NCBI GenBank assembly: GCA_902798975.1
Contig: CADBYT010000001.1
Coordinates: forward strand, 1 to 64,000
Direction: 5' to 3'
Length of the DNA: 64,000 bases
From: an uncultured Bacteroidia bacterium
Lineage (GTDB): Bacteria > Bacteroidota > Bacteroidia > Bacteroidales > UBA932
This document shows, piece after piece, positions 2,541 to 59,283 of the stretch. The position numbers and the translations under genes were made by a program. Positions within the stretch are counted from its first letter, which is position 1; each line of letters opens with the position of its first letter. The notes beneath the pieces are model-generated. The model was not told the origin of the DNA. It did no database searches and worked only from the letters and a program-made list of their open reading frames with translations.

Positions 2541-5500
2541 CCCAGCTCTTGATGCTGATCTCTTCCAGCGGCACGGCGCAGAAAGCCCGGATATAGGCGG
2601 TCGCCAGACGGCTGTTGGTAATGAGCGGCACGTTGAAGTCAATGGCCGCACGACGCATCTGGTATCCGTTGCTCAGCTCGCTGTGGGTGAAGTTCTTAGG
2701 GATATTGATCACAAGCTCCACTTCATGTTTCCGGATGAGATCGAGCGCAGCGGGGGCGCCTTCCTCCTGCTCGTTCGGCCAGAGGGCGCGGAGTGCCGGG
2801 ACCTCGTTCTCATTCAGGTACTTGCAGGTGCCGCCGGTGGCGTAGATCGTGTAATGCTTCTCCGCCAGAAGCTGGCAGGCACGCAGCAGGTCGGCCTTCT
2901 GGATCGGGTTGCCGGAAGAGATGAGGATGGACTTTTCCGGGATGCGGTGTCCGACGGAAAGCATGGACTTGAGCAGCGCCTCGTTGAGGTTGTCGCCGAT
3001 GCAGCCCACCTCGCCGGTGGACGCCATGTCCACGCCCAGCACCGGGTCGGCCTTGCCCAGACGGGCGAAGGAGAACTGCGAGCACTTGATGCCGACGTAG
3101 TCCAGCTCGAAGGGATCGATGTCGATGCGCTCCGGGCGCTGGCCGAGCATACAACGCGTGGCCAGGTCGATGAAGTTGACTTTCAGGACCTTGGACACGA
3201 AGGGGAAGCTGCGGGAGGCGCGCAGGTTGCACTCGATGACCTTGATGTAGTTGTCGGTCGCAAGGAACTGGATGTTGAACGGACCGGTGATGTGGAGCTC
3301 CGCGGCGATGGCTGCGGCGGTCTTGCGGATCTTGGCGGCGGTGATGCCGTAGATCTTCTGCGGCGGGAACTGGATGGTGGCGTCGCCGGAGTGCACGCCC
3401 GCGAACTCGATGTGCTCGGAGATCGCGTAGGCGATGACCTTGCCACCATCGGCCACGGCGTCGCATTCCAGCTCCTTGCAGCGCTGCATGAAGGAACTGA
3501 TGACCACCGGATGCTCCTCGGAGACCTCGACGGCCATGTCGAGGAAGATCCTCAGGTCATCCTTGCTGTAGCAAACGTTCATCGCGGCGCCGGAAAGCAC
3601 ATAGGACGGGCGCACGAGCACCGGGAAACCGACTTCGTCGACAAATTTGTCCACGTCTTCCATCGTCGTGAGCTCGCTCCAGCGCGGCTGGTCGATGCCC
3701 AGTTTGTCCACGATCTGGGAGAATTTGTTGCGGTCTTCGGCGCGGTCGATGTCATGGGCCGTCGTGCCCAGAATATGGACGCCGGCGCGCATCAGGGGCA
3801 CGGCCAGGTTGTTCGGGATCTGGCCGCCCACGCTCACGATGACGCCGTAGGGCTTCTCCAGGCCGCAAATCTCCATCACCGTCTCAAAGCTCAGCTCATC
3901 GAAATAGAGCCGGTCGCAGACGTCATAGTCGGTGGAGACGGTCTCCGGGTTATAGTTGATCATGATGGCCTTGTAGCCGCTCTCGCGCAGGGTCTTCAGG
4001 GCATTCACGCCGCACCAGTCGAACTCCACGCTGCTGCCGATGCGGTAGGCGCCGGAGCCCAGGACAATGACGGTGTTGGAGCCGTCCTCGAAAGAGATGT
4101 CATCGACCTCTCCGTTGTAGGTCATGTAGAGGTAGTTGGTCACAGAAGGGAATTCCGCGGCCAGGGTATCGATCTGCTTGACATAAGGCCGCAATCCCAG
4201 GAAGGCGCGCAGTTCACGCACCTTGGCCTCCGAAGTGCCGATCACCCGGGCGATCTGGATGTCCGAGAAGCCCTGGCACTTGGCCTTGCGGAGGAGATCG
4301 AAGCCGATGTCCGTCAGTTTCTTGCAGGATTCAAGTTCGCGGTAGGTCGCCTCGATGCCGGCCAGTTTGCACAGGAACCAGCGGTCGATCTTGGTCAGCT
4401 CGTAGATGCGGTCCACGGTATATCCGGCCTCAAAGGCAGCGGCGATGGCGAAAATACGCATGTCCGTGGGATGGCGCATCAAGTCGTCGAGTTCCTCGTG
4501 TTTGAAGGGCTTGTTGCAAACGAAACCGTTGGCACCCTGGCCGATCATACGCAAGCCTTTCTGCATCGCCTCTTCGAAGGTGCGGCCGATGGCCATCACC
4601 TCGCCGACGCTCTTCATGCTGGATCCGATCTCACGCGAGACGCCCTTGAACTTGTTGAGATCCCAGCGGGGAATCTTGCAGACTACGTAGTCGAGGGCCG
4701 GTTCGAAGAAGGCGGGCGTGGTCTTGGTCACTGTATTCTTAAGCTCGTGGAGTCCGTAGCCCAGGCCGATCTTGGCGGCGATGAAGGCGAGGGGATAGCC
4801 CGTGGCCTTGGAGGCCAGGGCGGAGGAGCGGCTCAGACGGGCGTTGATCTCGATCACGCGGTAGTCTTCGCCGTCGGGGCTGAAGGCGTACTGCACGTTG
4901 CACTCGCCGACGATACCGATGTGGCGCACGATGTCAATGGCCTTCTTGCGAAGGAAATTGCACTCGTCGTTGGTCAGCGTCTGGCAGGGGGCGACCACGA
5001 TGCTTTCGCCCGTATGGATGCCCAGCGGGTCGAAATTCTCCATGTTACAGACCGCGATGCAGTTGTCATAGCCGTCGCGCATCACCTCGAACTCGATTTC
5101 CTTCCAACCGCGAAGCGACTTTTCGACGAGCACCTGCGGGGAGAAGGAGAAGGCCTTGCGCGCCACGGTTTCCAGCTCCGCTTCATCCTCGCAGAAACCG
5201 GAACCCAGGCCGCCCAACGCATAGGCGGCACGAAGGATCACCGGGTAGCCGACTTCACGGGCGGCGGCACGCGCCTCCTCCAGGTTGGCGGCGGGATGGG
5301 ATTTGATCGTCTTGATATCGATCTCGTCCATGCGCTCCACGAAGAGCTCGCGGTCTTCCGTGTCGATGATGGACTGCACCGGGGTGCCGAGCACGCGGAC
5401 CCCGTTCGCCTCGAGGATGCCGTTCTTGTAGAGTGCGACGCCGCAGTTCAGCGCAGTCTGGCCGCCGAAGGCCAGCAGAATGCCCTGTGGCTTCTCTTTC

Positions 5501-52449: not shown

Positions 52450-54146
52450 ATTCAGGCGCCCTGTTGATCGTATTCAAACTGCTGGGGTCGATCGCCCTGC
52501 TCATGTACGGCATGAAGGTGATGAGCGAAGCGCTCCAGAAAATGGCAGGCCCCCAACTGCGCCACGTCCTGGGCGCCATGACGACCAACCGCTTCACCGG
52601 CGTCATGACGGGTATGGCCGTCTGCGTGGCCGTCCAGTCGTCCGCCGCCACCACCGTCATGACGGTATCCTTCGTGAACGCCGCCCTCCTGACCCTGGCG
52701 CAGGCCATTTCGGTGATCATGGGCGCCAACATCGGCACCACGCTCTCCGCCTGGATCATGTCCGCCGGATTTTCCTTCAACATCGCCAACCTCGTCTGGC
52801 CGGTGTTCCTGGTCGCCGTCATCCTGATCCAGTTCAAGAAACACCGCTACCTGGGCGATTTCCTTTTCGGTCTGTCCTTCATGTTCTTCGCGCTCGGCAC
52901 GCTCAACGCCACCGGCCGCGAGATGGACCTGGCCAGCAACGCGCAGGTGGTCAATTTCTTCTCCTCCTTCGATTCGGGCAGTTACCTCACGATCCTGCTC
53001 TTCCTGGTCATCGGCGCCATCCTGACCTGCATCGCGCAGTCTTCCGCCGCCCTGATGGCCATCACCATGGTGCTCTGCACCACCGGCGTACTCACGATTT
53101 ACCAGGGTGTCGCCCTGGTGATGGGTGAGAACATCGGTACCACCCTGACAGCCAACCTGGCGGCGCTCTCCGCCAACACGCAGGCCCGCCGCGCCGCGCT
53201 GGCCCACCTGGTGTTCAATATCTTCGGCGTGTGCTGGGTGCTCTGCGTGTTCTATCCCTTCGTCCGGACCGCCTGCCGCCTGGCGGGCGTGGATGCGGAC
53301 GCGGGCGTGGAGAACCCCGAGCGACTGACCTTCGTGCTGGCCACCTTCCACACCATGTTCAACCTGACCAACACGCTGATTCTCATCTGGTTCATTCCGC
53401 AGATCGAGAAGCTGGTCAGCAAGCTGATCCCGCAGAAGGTCACCGAAGACGAATTCCGGCTCCAGTTTATCTCCAGCGGTATCATGAAGACGCCGGAAAT
53501 CTCCGTCTTCCAGGCCCAGAAGGAGATCGAGCTCTTCGCTGACCGCATGCGCCGCGTCGTGGATATGGTCAGAGACCTGACTGCTCCCCAGGACGACGAG
53601 AACTTCCAGGTCATCTACGACCGCATCGCGAAATACGAGCACATCAGCGACAACATGGACAACGAGATCGGCAAATACCTCGGCCAGGTCAGCAATGCAC
53701 ACCTGTCCGACGACACCAAGCAGACGATCCGGGCCATGCTGCGCGAGATTGGCGAACTGGAGAGTATCGGCGACAGCTTCTTCAACCTCGCCCGCGCCCT
53801 GATGCGCCGCAAGAACCAGCAGGTCACCTTCTCCAAAGCCCAGGAAGAAGGCCTGGCCGAGATGTACGGTCTCCTGGAACAGAGCATGGACCAGATGATC
53901 GTCGTGCTGCGCGGCGAAGCCGACATCACCGAATCCACCCGGCTGGAGATCGCCATCAACGCCTGCCGCGACCGCCTGCGCGAGCAGAACGAGGGCGCGG
54001 TGGACGAGCACGACTACAGCTATGCCTGCAGCACCATCTTCATGGATCTGATCTCCGAGTGCGAGCAGTGCGGCGACTACATCGTGAACGTGGTGGAGGC
54101 CAAGACGGGCCAGAAGGTCGAGAAAACCGAGAAGAAAGCCGCCTGA
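52446..54146 (+). CDS. Na/Pi cotransporter family protein with PhoU-like C-terminus
   Basis: A 566-residue protein. The membrane half contains two inverted repeats with the QSSAATT and QSSAALM signatures and GANIGTT/GENIGTT motifs (residues about 60-240). The cytoplasmic C-terminal part (from about 340) is helical and PhoU-like. It probably imports phosphate with sodium. The start overlaps the nitroreductase stop by ATGA. Confidence 0.92.
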   Translation: MNSGALLIVFKLLGSIALLMYGMKVMSEALQKMAGPQLRHVLGAMTTNRFTGVMTGMAVCVAVQSSAATTVMTVSFVNAALLTLAQAISVIMGANIGTTLSAWIMSAGFSFNIANLVWPVFLVAVILIQFKKHRYLGDFLFGLSFMFFALGTLNATGREMDLASNAQVVNFFSSFDSGSYLTILLFLVIGAILTCIAQSSAALMAITMVLCTTGVLTIYQGVALVMGENIGTTLTANLAALSANTQARRAALAHLVFNIFGVCWVLCVFYPFVRTACRLAGVDADAGVENPERLTFVLATFHTMFNLTNTLILIWFIPQIEKLVSKLIPQKVTEDEFRLQFISSGIMKTPEISVFQAQKEIELFADRMRRVVDMVRDLTAPQDDENFQVIYDRIAKYEHISDNMDNEIGKYLGQVSNAHLSDDTKQTIRAMLREIGELESIGDSFFNLARALMRRKNQQVTFSKAQEEGLAEMYGLLEQSMDQMIVVLRGEADITESTRLEIAINACRDRLREQNEGAVDEHDYSYACSTIFMDLISECEQCGDYIVNVVEAKTGQKVEKTEKKAA

Positions 54147-54147
54147 C

Positions 54148-55341
54148 ATGTTTCGCTTCTCCAAGACCCTGACGACGCTGGCGCTGCTGACGGCGGGAGC
54201 CGCGGCGCTTTCCGCGCAGCCGCTGGACCGCTCACACCTGAATATGGGTGTCCAGGGGCAATACAGCCACGTCCTCAATGGCCAGGAGATTTATGAGAGA
54301 CTGCTGGAGTCCTACAATTACGGCATCTACAGCGCCACGCTGGGCATTTCCACCCACCCGGACGACGGCGACTGGTACGCGTACGCCTTGAACTATCCGA
54401 GCTACGGATTCGGCTTTACCTTCGCCGACATGGGTTCGCTGTCATGCAAGAACAACTCGCATCTCGGGGACGTCCTGGACATGTACGGCTGGACGGAATT
54501 CAGCCTGATCCGCACGCACTCTTTCCGTTTCGGGCCCACGCTGGAGTTCGGTCTGTCCTATACCGCCGCCATCTATGATGGCTACAGCAACCTCGCCAAC
54601 CGCTATTTCGGTTCGCAGCTCTTCGTGATGCTCAGCGCCGGCCTGCAGGCGGAATGGCTGTTCACGCCGCAGTGGGGGATACTCGCCGGCGTGTACCTGA
54701 TCCATCATTCCAACGGCATGCTCCAGACGCCCAACATCGGCATCAACGAACTGTCCGCCGGCGTGGGTTTGCGTTATTATTTCGCGCCCACGCGCTTCGA
54801 CGCCCGGCCGGCAGCCGCCCCGGAGAAGCCGGAGTTCCGCAAGGGCCTGCGCTGGAGCGTATTCGCCTCCGCAGGCATGCACAGCTGCCCGGTCGAGTTT
54901 GACTGGATCTATGAATCCGATGACCCCGCACACCTCGCGCCGCCGCATTTCTGCGCCGCCGCCGGCGTGGAACTGGCCTGGCACTATTCGCCCATCTTCG
55001 CCACCGGCATCGGCCTGGAGGCGAACTACTCCGCCAACAACTACCGCGACGTGGACCTGATGATCGAAGGGCGCGAGGACCCACGCGGCTATTCGCCCTG
55101 GCGCGTCGGCGTTTACCTGTCGCAGGAATTCCGCTACAGGCAGCTCTCCGTGCATCTCCAGATCGGCGCCTACCTCTTCAAGCGCTGCGGCCTGACGGAA
55201 GACATCGGCACCTCCTTACAGAAAGTTGGCCTACGCTACCATTTCCGCCGCACGCGCGGCATGTACCTCGGGCTCGACATGCGCGCGCACCAGTTCGACC
55301 GCTCCTACGCGCTGGAATGGTCGCTGGGGTTCGATCTGTAA
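54148..55341 (+). CDS. PagL-like acyloxyacyl hydrolase (lipid A 3-O-deacylase family)
   Basis: A 397-residue outer-membrane protein with signal peptide LTTLALLTAGAAALSAQ. The PagL-type active site is HHSNG (residues 186-190) within LIHHSNGMLQTPNIGINELS, where His and Ser are catalytic. PagL proteins are about 150-200 residues; here an extra C-terminal region of about 180 residues may form a second barrel (HYSPIFATGIGLEANYSA). It is expected to remove an ester-linked acyl chain from lipid A at the cell surface. It follows the Na/Pi gene by 1 bp. Confidence 0.75.
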   Translation: MFRFSKTLTTLALLTAGAAALSAQPLDRSHLNMGVQGQYSHVLNGQEIYERLLESYNYGIYSATLGISTHPDDGDWYAYALNYPSYGFGFTFADMGSLSCKNNSHLGDVLDMYGWTEFSLIRTHSFRFGPTLEFGLSYTAAIYDGYSNLANRYFGSQLFVMLSAGLQAEWLFTPQWGILAGVYLIHHSNGMLQTPNIGINELSAGVGLRYYFAPTRFDARPAAAPEKPEFRKGLRWSVFASAGMHSCPVEFDWIYESDDPAHLAPPHFCAAAGVELAWHYSPIFATGIGLEANYSANNYRDVDLMIEGREDPRGYSPWRVGVYLSQEFRYRQLSVHLQIGAYLFKRCGLTEDIGTSLQKVGLRYHFRRTRGMYLGLDMRAHQFDRSYALEWSLGFDL

Positions 55342-55398
55342 GCTCTTGACTTATATCAAATATTTTGTAATTTTACGACACTAAAAACACAAAGGAAA

Positions 55399-55920
55399 AT
55401 GGGTTTACTTAAGAATCTTCTCGACATTGCCGGAAAGGCCGTCTCGGTGGCGCAGGAACTTTCGGGCAAACAGGAACCGGCCAAGAATCAGACACCTGCT
55501 TATACCGCCCCGGTGCAGCGCCATGAAGAGGCTCCGGTCCGGGAGAAATCCGCCGCCGAATGGCGCGCATTCTTCCGTGAGATACTCATGACTGACTTTG
55601 CCGGATACAATGTCCGGGAAAATGTTCCCGTCACGGAACTCGTCGGAAACGCAGCCGACGAGGCCAAGCTCTATAAATCCCGTCCCAGCCAGGTCTACCG
55701 GGCTGAATGGGGCGAGCCCTACAGCTTTGTCCTGTATCAGATGGGGGCGCCGAAGGGTGTCGTCATGCTGGGCGACGGCCACAGCCATTCCGCGAAGGTC
55801 AAATATCTGATCGCCCGGATGTACGCCAAGAAGATCGGCATCCCGTACATCAACTTCTACACCCAGATGCCCAACGAACGCAACTACGTCGTGGGGCGCA
55901 TCCACAAGTTCCTGGGATAG
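55399..55920 (+). CDS. Hypothetical protein with C-terminal nuclease-like fold
   Basis: A 173-residue protein. A helical N-terminus (LLKNLLDIAGKAVSVAQELS) and a polar linker are followed by a domain from about residue 60 ending KVKYLIARMYAKKIGIPYIN, then NYVVGRIHKFL. That ending recalls a restriction-endonuclease-like domain in many Bacteroidota and Firmicutes hypothetical proteins; catalytic residues are not obvious. It lies directly upstream of the structured region before the reverse transcriptase, on the same strand. Confidence 0.6.
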   Translation: MGLLKNLLDIAGKAVSVAQELSGKQEPAKNQTPAYTAPVQRHEEAPVREKSAAEWRAFFREILMTDFAGYNVRENVPVTELVGNAADEAKLYKSRPSQVYRAEWGEPYSFVLYQMGAPKGVVMLGDGHSHSAKVKYLIARMYAKKIGIPYINFYTQMPNERNYVVGRIHKFLG

Positions 55921-55926
55921 ACCTAC

Positions 55927-56057
55927 GAAAAAGGGGATGCGACTTTGTTGCGCCTGCGAAGGACGCAGCATCACCCGAAAATGCCTTGCAGGCGGCAGGG
56001 TGGTGTACCCGTCCGGTGATCAGCAATTTTGCTGATTCAAAATCATTCCCCTTTTTC
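55927..56057 (+). ncRNA. Candidate structured RNA immediately upstream of the reverse transcriptase
   Basis: A perfect 11-bp inverted repeat GAAAAAGGGGA (55927-55937)/TCCCCTTTTTC (56047-56057) encloses three hairpins. The first is CTGCG/CGCAG (55954-55958 with 55964-55968). The second is CATCACCC/GGGTGGTG (55969-55976 with 55998-56005) with an inner TGCC/GGCA. The third is ATCAGCA/TGCTGAT (56019-56025 with 56030-56036) with loop ATTT. The last base of the repeat is 8 nt from the reverse transcriptase ATG. The layout is like retron or DRT-type noncoding RNAs. No reading frame of note is present. Confidence 0.5.
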
Positions 56058-56065
56058 TTTTTCTT

Positions 56066-57265
56066 ATGCGCAGCATTATCTCTCAGTTGGACGACCAGGC
56101 GCTTTGGGAAGAATTCCTGGCCTACCGTCTGATGAAGGGCCGTTTCACATGGCCCATGTTCAGCGATGCGGACGACTGCGTCGCGAACGAGAGTTATCTG
56201 CCGACAGCCCGGGCCTTCATGAACGGCGAAGGCCCCGGCATTCCCGAACGGAAGCGCATCAACAAGATGGGAACCGGCAAGAAACGGACGGTCTACTGTT
56301 TCAGCCCGGAAGAAACCCGCGTCCTCAAGCTTATCGCCTTCCTCCTGTACCGCTACGACGATCGCTTTTCCCCGAACTGCTATGCCTTCCGGCGCGGCAT
56401 CAAGGCCAGCGATGCGGTGTTCCGGCTCCGGAAAGCGCTCCGGAGCCGGAAACTGTGGGCCTACAAGCTGGATATCCACGATTACTTCAACTCCATTTCC
56501 ATTTCCATCCTGCTTCCGATACTCAAGGATCTTCTGTCCGATGACCCGCCTCTCTACGCGTTCTTCGAACGGATGCTGACAGACGGCAGGGCGCTTGCCG
56601 ACGGAGAGATCGTCACGGAGAAAAGGGGCGTGATGGCCGGCACGCCCACATCCCCGTTCCTGGCAGATGTCTACCTGATGGAGGTGGACCGCCATTTCGC
56701 AGATGCCGGCGTCATCTATGCCCGCTATTCGGACGATATCATCCTGTTTGCGGAGACCCGGGAGGAGCTGGAAGCGCAAAAGACGGTGCTGCTGGGCTTT
56801 CTGGAAAAATACCGCCTGGAGGTGAATCCGGACAAGGAACGGATCTATTCGCCCGACGAGCCCTTCGAATTCCTCGGATTCCGATGCCACGGCAACGAGA
56901 TTGACATCTCCACCGCGGTCAGGGCCAAGAGGAAGGGCAAGATCCGGCGCGCCGCACGCTCGCTCCAACGGTGGCGTACGGAGAAGAATCTGGGTGCGGA
57001 ACAGGCCATGAGAGCCCTGATCCGCCAGTTCAATGCCAAGTTCTTCGAGGGGGAGGATCCCGATGCGCTCAGCTGGTCCAGGTGGTTCTTCCCGGTCATC
57101 AACCGGACCGAAGGCCTGAAGGAGATCGACCTGTACCTCCAGCAGTATCTCCGTTACCTGTCCACCGGCCGGCACACCAAGGCCAACTACCGGGTGCGCT
57201 ATTCAGACCTCAAGGCGCTGGGCTATCGCAGCCTCGTCCATGAGTATTACGAAGAAAATCACTAA
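56066..57265 (+). CDS. Reverse transcriptase, unclassified group, YSDD active site
   Basis: A 399-residue RNA-directed DNA polymerase. Motifs in order are LDIHDYFNSIS (first catalytic Asp, about residue 138), MAGTPTSPFLADVYL (motif 4), ARYSDDIILF (YSDD at 221-224) and FEFLGFRCHG. A C-terminal helical part follows (WSRWFFPVINRTEGLKEIDL, then YLSTGRHTKANYRVRYSDLK). It lacks maturase and HNH domains of group II introns, and I do not see the NAxxH or VTG motifs of retron enzymes. It resembles stand-alone gut-bacterial reverse transcriptases that I recall but cannot assign to a DRT type. No other gene partners it apart from the structured leader. Confidence 0.88.
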   Translation: MRSIISQLDDQALWEEFLAYRLMKGRFTWPMFSDADDCVANESYLPTARAFMNGEGPGIPERKRINKMGTGKKRTVYCFSPEETRVLKLIAFLLYRYDDRFSPNCYAFRRGIKASDAVFRLRKALRSRKLWAYKLDIHDYFNSISISILLPILKDLLSDDPPLYAFFERMLTDGRALADGEIVTEKRGVMAGTPTSPFLADVYLMEVDRHFADAGVIYARYSDDIILFAETREELEAQKTVLLGFLEKYRLEVNPDKERIYSPDEPFEFLGFRCHGNEIDISTAVRAKRKGKIRRAARSLQRWRTEKNLGAEQAMRALIRQFNAKFFEGEDPDALSWSRWFFPVINRTEGLKEIDLYLQQYLRYLSTGRHTKANYRVRYSDLKALGYRSLVHEYYEENH

Positions 57266-57270
57266 CTTTG
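57263..57270 (+). promoter_or_regulatory. Promoter -7 box of obgE, inside the end of the RT gene
   Basis: TAACTTTG overlaps the reverse transcriptase stop codon and ends 7 bp before the obgE ATG, so the transcript would have a leader of only a few bases. Confidence 0.55.
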
Positions 57271-57277
57271 CGGAGCA

Positions 57278-58267
57278 ATGGCAGAAAGCAACTTCATAGA
57301 CTACGTAAAGATCTACTGCGCCTCCGGGCACGGGGGAGCGGGATCGGCGCATCTGCACCGCGCCAAATATGTCCCCAAAGGGGGTCCGGACGGCGGAGAC
57401 GGCGGACGCGGCGGGCACATCATCCTGCGCGCCAATCCCCAGTTCTGGACGCTGATCCACCTCAAATACCGCAAGCACATCCACGCCGAGGACGGCGAGA
57501 AAGGCGGCTCCGACCTGCGTACGGGCAAGAACGGCGAGGACATCTATCTCGATGTCCCCATCGGCACCGTGGCCAAGAACGCGGACACGGACGAGGTCCT
57601 TTTCGAGATGATGGAAGCGGGGGAGGAGCGCATCCTCTGCCGGGGCGGCAAGGGCGGCCTGGGCAACAACAATTTCAAGACCCCGACCCTGCAGACACCC
57701 CGTTTCGCCCAGCCGGGCGAAGAAGGGGAGGAGGGCGTGTATATCCTTGAGTTGAAGCTGCTTGCGGACGTCGGCCTGGTCGGCTTCCCGAACGCCGGCA
57801 AGTCCACGCTGCTCGCCACGATCACGGCCGCCAAGCCGAAGATCGCTTCCTACGCCTTCACCACGCTGGAACCGAACCTAGGCATCGTACGCTACTACGA
57901 CGACAAGTCGTTCGTGATGGCGGACATCCCCGGCATCATCGAGGGCGCCCACGAGGGCAAGGGCATCGGCATCCGCTTCCTGCGCCACATCGAGCGCAAT
58001 TCCGTGTTGCTCTTCATGGTGAGCGTGGAGGAAGAGGACATCGCCGCGGCCTACAAGACGCTCCTCTCGGAGCTCAAACTCTACAATCCGGAATTACTGA
58101 CCAAGCAGCGCGTGCTGGCCATCACGAAATGCGACCTGATCGACGCCGATATCGAGAAGATGATCAAGCCGCACCTGCCGCGCAAGGTCCCTTGCGTGTT
58201 CATCTCCTCCAGCACCGGACAGGGGTTACAGGAACTTAAAGATCTGCTCTGGAAGGCCTTGCAGTAG
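57278..58267 (+). CDS. obgE: GTPase Obg/CgtA
   Basis: A 329-residue Obg GTPase. The glycine-rich Obg fold (KYVPKGGPDGGDGGRGGHII) spans residues 1-155. The GTPase domain follows with G1 GFPNAGKST, G3 DIPGI and G4 TKCD. It acts in large ribosomal subunit maturation and stress control. It ends in a TAG followed directly by palindromic repeats. Confidence 0.96.
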   Translation: MAESNFIDYVKIYCASGHGGAGSAHLHRAKYVPKGGPDGGDGGRGGHIILRANPQFWTLIHLKYRKHIHAEDGEKGGSDLRTGKNGEDIYLDVPIGTVAKNADTDEVLFEMMEAGEERILCRGGKGGLGNNNFKTPTLQTPRFAQPGEEGEEGVYILELKLLADVGLVGFPNAGKSTLLATITAAKPKIASYAFTTLEPNLGIVRYYDDKSFVMADIPGIIEGAHEGKGIGIRFLRHIERNSVLLFMVSVEEEDIAAAYKTLLSELKLYNPELLTKQRVLAITKCDLIDADIEKMIKPHLPRKVPCVFISSSTGQGLQELKDLLWKALQ

Positions 58268-58268
58268 C

Positions 58269-58340
58269 CGTCATTTACCGGCTATCCTCCGTCATTCCCG
58301 GCCCTCCGTCGTCATTCGCCGGCTCCGACCGGCGAATCTC
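58269..58340. repeat. Palindromic elements between obgE and the lipid kinase gene
   Basis: Two decayed GTCATT fragments at 58269-58310 and a full copy at 58311-58340 (GTCATTCGCCGG, then CCGGCGAATCTC). The last bases of the full copy form part of the TGA stop of the minus-strand gene at 58339. Confidence 0.8.
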
Positions 58341-59283
58341 ATCCTTTCAGGACGTGCACCCGCTCCCCGGTGACCTCCACCGTGAGCGGCAGTTGCGCCT
58401 CGACCTCACCGTCAAATTCGACGATATCCGCGGACGCCTCGTCCAGCGGAGCCACCCGCAGGGTCTTGCAGCGGCCGCTGATGATGAGTTCCGACTCGTT
58501 GGCCGTGCCGGAGAACAGGCGCGGAATCTCCTTCGTCAGCGACAACAGCTTCGCCTTCGGGACGATCATATAGTCCAGCAGCCCGTCGTCGTTGACCGCG
58601 CAGGGAACCTGCCGCATGCCGCCGCCGGACCAGGCGCCGTTGCCGGCCGCCATGGAATAAGCTTCGCCGCTGAAGACCTCCCGGTCATCTGCGAAAACGG
58701 CGATACGGATGGGTTTGATATGCGTAATCGTATGGCGCAAGCCATTGAGATAGATCATCTTGCCGCGCATGCCGCGCTCCTTCTGGCGGTTCACCCGCTC
58801 GCACACGTGCGAGTCGAATCCCAGGCCGCAGCCGTTCGCCATGTAGGAGACCTTCCCGTCGCGGCTGGTGCCGCGCACGACGTCCATCCAGCCGAAGGAT
58901 TGCTGGCTGATCAGCTTGACCACATTCTCGACGTCGTCCGGGACATGGCAGGACTTGATCCAGTCATTGCCGGAGCCGATCGGGACCACTGTCAGGTAGA
59001 ATTCTTCCGTGGGCGTGCCGGTCTCCGCGCACCAGCTGCAGATGCCGCCCAGCACTTCGTGGAAAGAACCGTCGCCGCCCACGGCGGCAATCCGCCTGTA
59101 CCCGGCTGAAGCGGCCTCCCGGGCCAGTGTGACGGCATGTTTCTTGTGATCGGTCATCTCGGTCACGAAGGGAATTCCCTTCTGTTCGAGCATCTTCTCG
59201 GCAGGGACCCATTCGGACATCGCTTTCCCGGAACCGGCCCGAGGATTTACGATGAAATACCACGCGGTTTTTGTATCAGACAT
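58339..59283 (-). CDS. YegS/DAGK-type lipid kinase
   Basis: A 314-residue protein of the diacylglycerol kinase catalytic family. It has the FIVNPRAGSGKA start, the nucleotide motif AAVGGDGSFHEVLGGI (near residues 57-72) and GSGNDWIKS. It probably phosphorylates a lipid such as diacylglycerol or a sphingoid base; sphingolipids are common in Bacteroidales, so either is possible. The ATG at 59283 fits a TATTTTCG promoter just upstream. Confidence 0.88.
   Translation of the reverse strand: MSDTKTAWYFIVNPRAGSGKAMSEWVPAEKMLEQKGIPFVTEMTDHKKHAVTLAREAASAGYRRIAAVGGDGSFHEVLGGICSWCAETGTPTEEFYLTVVPIGSGNDWIKSCHVPDDVENVVKLISQQSFGWMDVVRGTSRDGKVSYMANGCGLGFDSHVCERVNRQKERGMRGKMIYLNGLRHTITHIKPIRIAVFADDREVFSGEAYSMAAGNGAWSGGGMRQVPCAVNDDGLLDYMIVPKAKLLSLTKEIPRLFSGTANESELIISGRCKTLRVAPLDEASADIVEFDGEVEAQLPLTVEVTGERVHVLKG

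Follow-up and report, generated by a model that had tools for sequence, protein, structure and literature searches.

Several bacterial reverse transcriptases (RTs) are described as taking their template from a non-coding RNA (ncRNA), and these enzymes have been proposed to be relatives of telomerase (PMC12632851). In DRT10, the loop that holds the template comes directly after a stem-loop, SL5, and the template follows an A-B-A' pattern that yields a cDNA of tandem repeats (PMC12632851). For DRT3a, an ACACAC template is described in a loop placed like the loops of DRT9 and DRT10 (PMC13174585), and for DRT9 the template is given as a conserved tract of uridines (PMC12483538). UG26 is merely listed among viral RTs, with no mechanism described, in the accessible portions of the open-access literature searched; that literature holds no mention of RT-5 RNA, the RT-5 motif or RF03026, nor of COG2852 together with reverse transcriptase. 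The accessible portion of a 2026 overview of DRT1-9 (PMC13213688) does not mention UG26 either.

The locus described here, in a window of 64,000 nucleotides (the whole stretch of DNA analysed) from an uncultured gut bacterium of the Bacteroidia, is a compact cassette of an RT, a folded RNA and a partner protein (Table 1), the parts of which probably form one transcription unit. By its sequence, the RT is a member of UG26: it matches the PADLOC model RT_UG26 at 517.9 bits (E 3.6e-156) over residues 3-398, that is, over its full length, against 119.4 bits for the next-best PADLOC model. The UG26 model is silent on any RNA or partner. A cis-encoded, conserved and structured RNA, one of the marks of the ncRNA-templated class 2 DRTs, is present. 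As far as the available description goes, DRT10 (UG17) is similar in combining an RT, an ncRNA and a partner, and in having a stem-loop just upstream of the template loop; it differs in that its partner is a SLATT protein, whereas that in the window is RTasCOG2852-like, and a pseudoknot is supported in the RNA family of the window (PMC12632851). With DRT9 (UG28), again judged from part of the account, the cassette shares a similar RT fold and an RT with an ncRNA bearing a conserved (in our case candidate) template tract; the template is poly-uridine and the catalytic motif YADD in DRT9, in contrast to TTCAAA and YSDD here (PMC12483538).

Table 1. Positions of the cassette components, the predicted RNA elements and the PagL-like gene, counted from the first base of the window.
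Feature	Position	Strand	Remarks
PagL-like (lipid A deacylase family) protein gene	54148-55341		Upstream of the cassette
Partner ORF ('UPORF')	55399..55920	+	173 aa
Complete ncRNA element (extended RT-5), P1 5' arm to P1 3' arm	55927..56057	+	Predicted extent
RF03026 RT-5 match	55948..56049	+	Rfam
P1 closing helix, 5' arm	55927..55937	+	Pairs with 56047-56057
P2 hairpin	55939..55951	+	GCGA 55939-55942 with TTGC 55948-55951
Pseudoknot arm GCCTGC	55952..55957	+	Pairs with P5 loop 55988-55993, GCAGGC
P4	55961-55965 with 56010-56014	+	Alignment; also in printed Rfam consensus
P4b	55969-55975 with 55999-56005	+	Alignment; also in printed Rfam consensus
P5	55982-55985 with 55994-55997	+	Alignment; also in printed Rfam consensus
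P6 hairpin, candidate template boundary	56019..56036	+	ATCAGCAA 56019-56026 with TTGCTGAT 56029-56036
Candidate template loop TCAAAATCAT (inferred)	56037..56046	+	Between P6 and P1 3' arm
P1 closing helix, 3' arm	56047..56057	+	Pairs with 55927-55937
UG26 reverse transcriptase	56066..57265	+	399 aa; YSDD is residues 221-224

The gap between the partner ORF and the RT (55921-56065) is 145 nt long, and its strand folds to -60 kcal/mol, where shuffled versions average -38.8 (z -5.6) and none of 200 folds as well. An earlier note, made from the DNA alone, had seen in it a perfect 11-nt inverted repeat that encloses hairpins. The repeat is indeed perfect, with 109 nt between its arms, and RNAalifold, given 76 RNAs, recovers the closing helix and the inner hairpins unprompted. 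Judged by its Rfam match, the RNA is a member of an already catalogued family, RT-5 (RF03026), which it matches end to end (model positions 1-104 of 104) at 91.7 bits (E 4e-18; threshold 45.7) and with which it shares P4, P4b, P5 and P6. RT-5 reportedly stems from a 2017 survey of structured RNAs by Weinberg and others. Its printed consensus consists of these four helices, whereas P1, P2 and a pseudoknot between GCCTGC and the P5 loop are added here with the support of covariation; the output of cmscan omits pseudoknots.

The alignment behind these additions contains the window RNA and those of 75 of the 80 homologous loci. Four loci cut by a contig end, with the 3' part of the RNA present (L024, L055, L061 and L071), were left out, as was L032, which lacks TTCAAA and the RNA of which was later recovered by a covariance model built from the 76. 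In the 45-pair structure with the pseudoknot, 96.8% of cells are paired, and 23 pairs show changes on both sides against a shuffled mean of 13.5; none of 500 shuffles reaches any of the five measures observed, and sliding the partners by 1-3 columns reduces pairing to 42-53%. P1 is paired in 96.9% of cells, with both-side changes in four of its 11 pairs, P2 in 98.7-100% (two of four pairs) and the pseudoknot in 99.8% (three of six pairs). P1 is thus a real closing helix that the printed consensus misses, and the pseudoknot covaries and is supported across the family. Because kinship can inflate the shuffle test, and because the structure was drawn from the same alignment, the stronger evidence comes from 11 further RNAs in other genomes, in which P1, the pseudoknot and P6 return, mostly with different arms. 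The P1 arms are complementary in all 11 and differ in sequence in nine, those of L115 and L121 being nearly the arms of the window, and the pseudoknots of divergent loci read GCTTTC/GAAAGC, GCCTTC/GAAGGC and ACCTGC/GCAGGT. The pairing of the RT with a structured upstream RNA, as the earlier note proposed, is therefore borne out by a covarying fold in homologues.

The covariance model finds the RNA in the divergent loci L095, L097, L098, L116, L117, L118 and L120, the divergent sense matches scoring 43-76 bits. At E up to 1 it gives no report for L096, L099 and L119, the last a fragment at a contig edge; the helices of L096 and L099 were read instead from a comparison of the divergent RNAs. Four further matches of the model, at 17-27 bits (best E 1.2e-4), fell on the minus strand, opposite true sites.

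On balance, we favour the reading that the cassette encodes an RT that, like those of DRT3a, DRT9 and DRT10, takes its template from an ncRNA, with the template loop between P6 and P1 and, in one branch, a bound partner. The ncRNA would fold into a pseudoknotted structure closed by P1 and act in trans as scaffold and template for the RT, which would copy the loop between P6 and the closing helix (TTCAAA...); P6 would stop the enzyme, as SL5 does in DRT10, and the product, by analogy, would be a single-stranded cDNA of short repeats. The loop sits where the template loops of class 2 DRTs sit, and by that analogy it is likely to template cDNA. The argument is one of position, not of repeat pattern. 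TTCAAA stands ahead of the P1 arm in 79 of the 80 loci (L032 being the exception) and in 10 of the 11 further RNAs (all but L120). In the window, ATTC occurs twice at a distance of 10 nt, but direct repeats of the A-B-A' kind, at least 3 nt long, are not significantly enriched over the family: of 28 distinct loops 22 have one, where shuffling gives 18.9 (p about 0.09). The narrower pattern TTCAAA-N-TC occurs in 59 of 76 rows; counted over distinct spacers, it is seen in 15 of 27, where shuffling gives 3.7, an excess that shared descent may explain. In L120 the loop that follows P6, TTTAATATTTC, carries two copies of ATTT at a spacing of 7 nt, which looks, in this one case, like a joint change of both repeat copies.

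It could also be that the RT and RNA form a working complex in which the RNA is mainly a scaffold, DNA synthesis being untemplated or templated by another RNA and TTCAAA being a binding element; the conserved hexamer could indeed be a protein-binding site. The near invariance of TTCAAA speaks for this, since the loop of DRT10 is described, in the parts of the paper available, as variable and as carrying A-B-A' in 85-95% of RNAs, whereas the present loop is conserved and its A-B-A' pattern not significant (PMC12632851). So does RNAalifold, in which the three leading loop bases pair with 56017-56019, and the loop may therefore be shorter than drawn. However, the templates of DRT9 and DRT3a are likewise described as conserved, and the DRT3a loop is said to lie where those of DRT9 and DRT10 do, as far as the accessible text of these reports goes (PMC12483538; PMC13174585). 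We regard an RNA that is mainly a scaffold as rather unlikely.

The position of the RNA bears on another alternative, namely that it is a cis-regulatory leader or attenuator of the RT, with P1 and the T-run that follows it acting as a terminator. The RNA ends 8 nt before the start codon of the RT in the window, the 3' arm of P1 is a run of C and T followed by T's, and the gap to the RT, which ranges from 5 to 170 nt, is at most 60 nt in 66 of the 76 aligned cases and longer in 10. The distance to the partner is the tighter of the two, the RNA starting 4-50 nt (median 8) past the partner stop in 76 of 76. In L115 the RNA (303-443) directly follows the partner, and the start of the RT, near 3494, is about 3 kb away; in L116 the RNA (2870-3007) is separated by about 0.5 kb from an RT that starts near 3553; both are draft assemblies, in which mis-joins are possible. 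That the RNA follows the partner in these two loci while the RT sits at a distance suggests that it is more than an RT leader. A pseudoknot that covaries and persists beside RTs of 32% identity also fits an RNA bound by the RT better than a leader. The view of the RNA as a leader in the earlier note thus does not hold as it was put, and a regulatory leader is, in our opinion, an unlikely explanation of the family. At the RNA end in L116 (3003-3032), before the RT, there is a strong hairpin with a T-run that resembles an intrinsic terminator.

The RT itself was compared with its relatives through the 80 homologous loci, which were those kept out of 203 RT relatives, and through an alignment of 46 of 81 RTs, near-duplicates and fragments having been removed by eye. 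The catalytic motifs that had been noticed in the 399-residue protein are present (KLDIHDYFNSI and YARYSDDI, with the aspartates intact). YSDD had been taken as a departure from YADD; it is kept in all 80 loci and throughout a deeper alignment of 19 RTs, at identities down to about 32%, and so is a signature of the group rather than an oddity. The AlphaFold2 model of the RT has a pLDDT of 91.5, and Foldseek ranks group II intron RTs first, followed by G2L4 RT and DRT9, with DRT2 at rank 17; that a DRT does not come first speaks against the reading favoured here.

An inverted repeat that encloses hairpins beside an RT recalls the retrons, in which case P1 would be the a1/a2 repeat and the inner hairpins msr and msd of a divergent member. 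VTG is a retron-type motif. The earlier note found neither it nor NAxxH in the window RT, which we can confirm; among 81 UG26 RTs, VTG occurs in one and NAxxH in two, never in the same protein. With the St85 retron model the RT reaches 59 bits (cut-off 235), against 517.9 bits as UG26, and the RNA beside it belongs to Rfam RT-5 and has a pseudoknot. Elsewhere in the same genome there is, moreover, an RT fragment that does have VTG, which also tells against reading the cassette as a retron. We hold such a retron to be very improbable. The conclusion of the earlier note that the RT is not a retron RT by sequence is correct, and its 'different class' is one already catalogued, as UG26 for the RT and RT-5 for the RNA. 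The fragment just mentioned (L002, at the start of contig G000:C7) is a second RT, cut by the contig end, that reads RYADD and EVTGLVV and is likely, from these motifs, to be a retron RT. That the RT of the window is a group II intron RT or its remnant, as might be thought from the best Foldseek matches (structures of GsI-IIC RT, TM 0.77) and from a match to TIGR04416, can hardly be entertained, because that match, at 120.9 bits, is far under the cut-off of 300, the UG26 match is full length, and the Rfam matches at 54000-59000 include no group II intron RNA.

The earlier note had called the RT lone. There is instead a conserved partner ORF directly upstream, a homologue of which is the immediate upstream gene in all 76 loci with enough sequence, and the other neighbours in the window, including Obg and the PagL-like protein, recur in none of the 80 loci in flanks of up to 5 kb. 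Further neighbours in the window are read, from their sequences, as a NaPi transporter, a lipid kinase and ParA. A profile of the partner finds two of 198 order genomes and five of 149 family genomes, all of which also have UG26. The alignment used for the partner holds 62 of 77 sequences, near-duplicates and fragments having been removed by eye, and 58 of these 62 match the PADLOC model RTasCOG2852 at E up to 0.1 (best 6.8e-8), although the window protein itself does so at E 0.016 only. The makers of PADLOC, it appears from these matches, already knew of a protein of this kind next to some RT.

The partner looks, in its predicted structure, like an amphipathic N-terminus, a Pro/Gln-rich linker and a compact alpha/beta domain similar to PD-(D/E)XK proteins. 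The AlphaFold2 model has a pLDDT of 85.8 overall and of 46-55 over residues 1-30. The best Foldseek match is TnsA endonuclease (E 0.08, TM 0.31, rmsd 8.6), with none at 0.001, and the RTasCOG2852 match was counted in support of the PD-(D/E)XK fold. Profile comparison with PDB sequences gave nothing meaningful (best E 0.69), and no Pfam family matched more than five of the 62 members (best E 0.0072), one member matching TnsA-like N at 0.053. The core strands, residues 108-114 and 117-125, hold no conserved D...(D/E)XK set. Conserved residues are found elsewhere (E103 in 60, D87 in 57 and K135 in 62 of 62 sequences), and being off the core strands they make a different active site possible. Over the first 18 residues after the Met, the hydrophobic moment exceeds that of more than 95% of shuffles in 54 of 75 proteins and of fewer than 90% in 19. 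In the branch that has it, the partner may bind the cDNA or the RT-RNA complex, and its N-terminus could place either at the membrane.

No recognisable partner was found in the most divergent UG26 loci, L096-L099 and L118, with RTs of 32-36% identity, the upstream sequence of L096 being 374 nt only. The partner is therefore not universal, and it seems from this comparison that RT and RNA are the core, with the partner confined to one branch; that branch includes L095, L116 and L117, the RTs of which are 39-41% identical to the window RT. The partner position of L120 (3890-4810, minus strand), beside a UG26 RT and RNA, is occupied by a 206-aa ORF with a zinc ribbon-like start; the 95-aa ORF ahead of it resembles a zinc ribbon plus a transmembrane helix. 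The 206-aa ORF aligned with the partner at the expected place, at a domain E of 2.9, which is not significant.

UG26 matches were found in 11 of 393 order genomes and six of 149 family genomes; in a sample of the phylum, the window's own genome is the one match among 395. Among the matches listed, UG26 occurs in two of 11 genomes of the same genus, the window's own included. The distribution is patchy, which fits an accessory system. Some genomes may hold two copies: G776, which has one copy on C20, bears a further UG26 RT fragment at a contig end (L119, G776:C23). Neither plasmids (at E 1e-30) nor phages (at E 1e-20) gave a match to the UG26 RT, and one viral contig carries a distant RT of 26% identity. 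Among the records listed (60 of 471 for plasmids and 10 of 10 for phages), the RT matches are mostly group II introns, some being Cas1-linked and retron-type. One genome of the genus, G932, was considered as an empty site: it has obg at 96% identity and a PagL-like gene at 56%, but the two are separated by another gene and the site is not clean. That gene, on the minus strand of L134 (1330-2763), is carboxylesterase-like by reading and takes the place that the cassette has in the window. In the six remaining loci of the genus (L135-L140), no PagL-like neighbour of obg was found.

Location in a defence island is a common but not a strict feature of DRTs. For the neighbour scan, 16 loci were drawn randomly from 45 with full flanks, and up to six nearest ORFs of at least 120 and fewer than 900 aa were taken. 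Among the 91 neighbours thus obtained, PADLOC at E 1e-20 reported methyltransferase and mad3 models only, and the NCBIfam names, among the best 25 of 215 families, are mostly those of metabolic and translation genes. The neighbouring genes are of the housekeeping kind. The lack of a defence-island signal is evidence against assuming defence, and a role of the cassette in phage defence is unproven.

The analysis links three orphans that had been catalogued apart from one another: an RNA of Rfam, a group of RTs and a COG2852-like protein associated with RTs. They become a single module whose mechanism can be tested, and for the RT group, UG26, the open-access literature searched describes no mechanism. 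We suggest tentatively, and with more doubt than conviction, that UG26 and RT-5 might together be a further bacterial telomerase-like synthesiser, in which a pseudoknotted RNA with a boundary at P6 would direct a single-stranded DNA of TTTGA-containing repeats, (GATTTTGAAT)n or (TTTTGA)n in the window, to be read by a nuclease-fold protein that would have lost the usual active site and gained a membrane-seeking helix. If the loop is copied, the bacterial RTs that use an ncRNA template would gain a pseudoknotted member, one whose partner is not SLATT.
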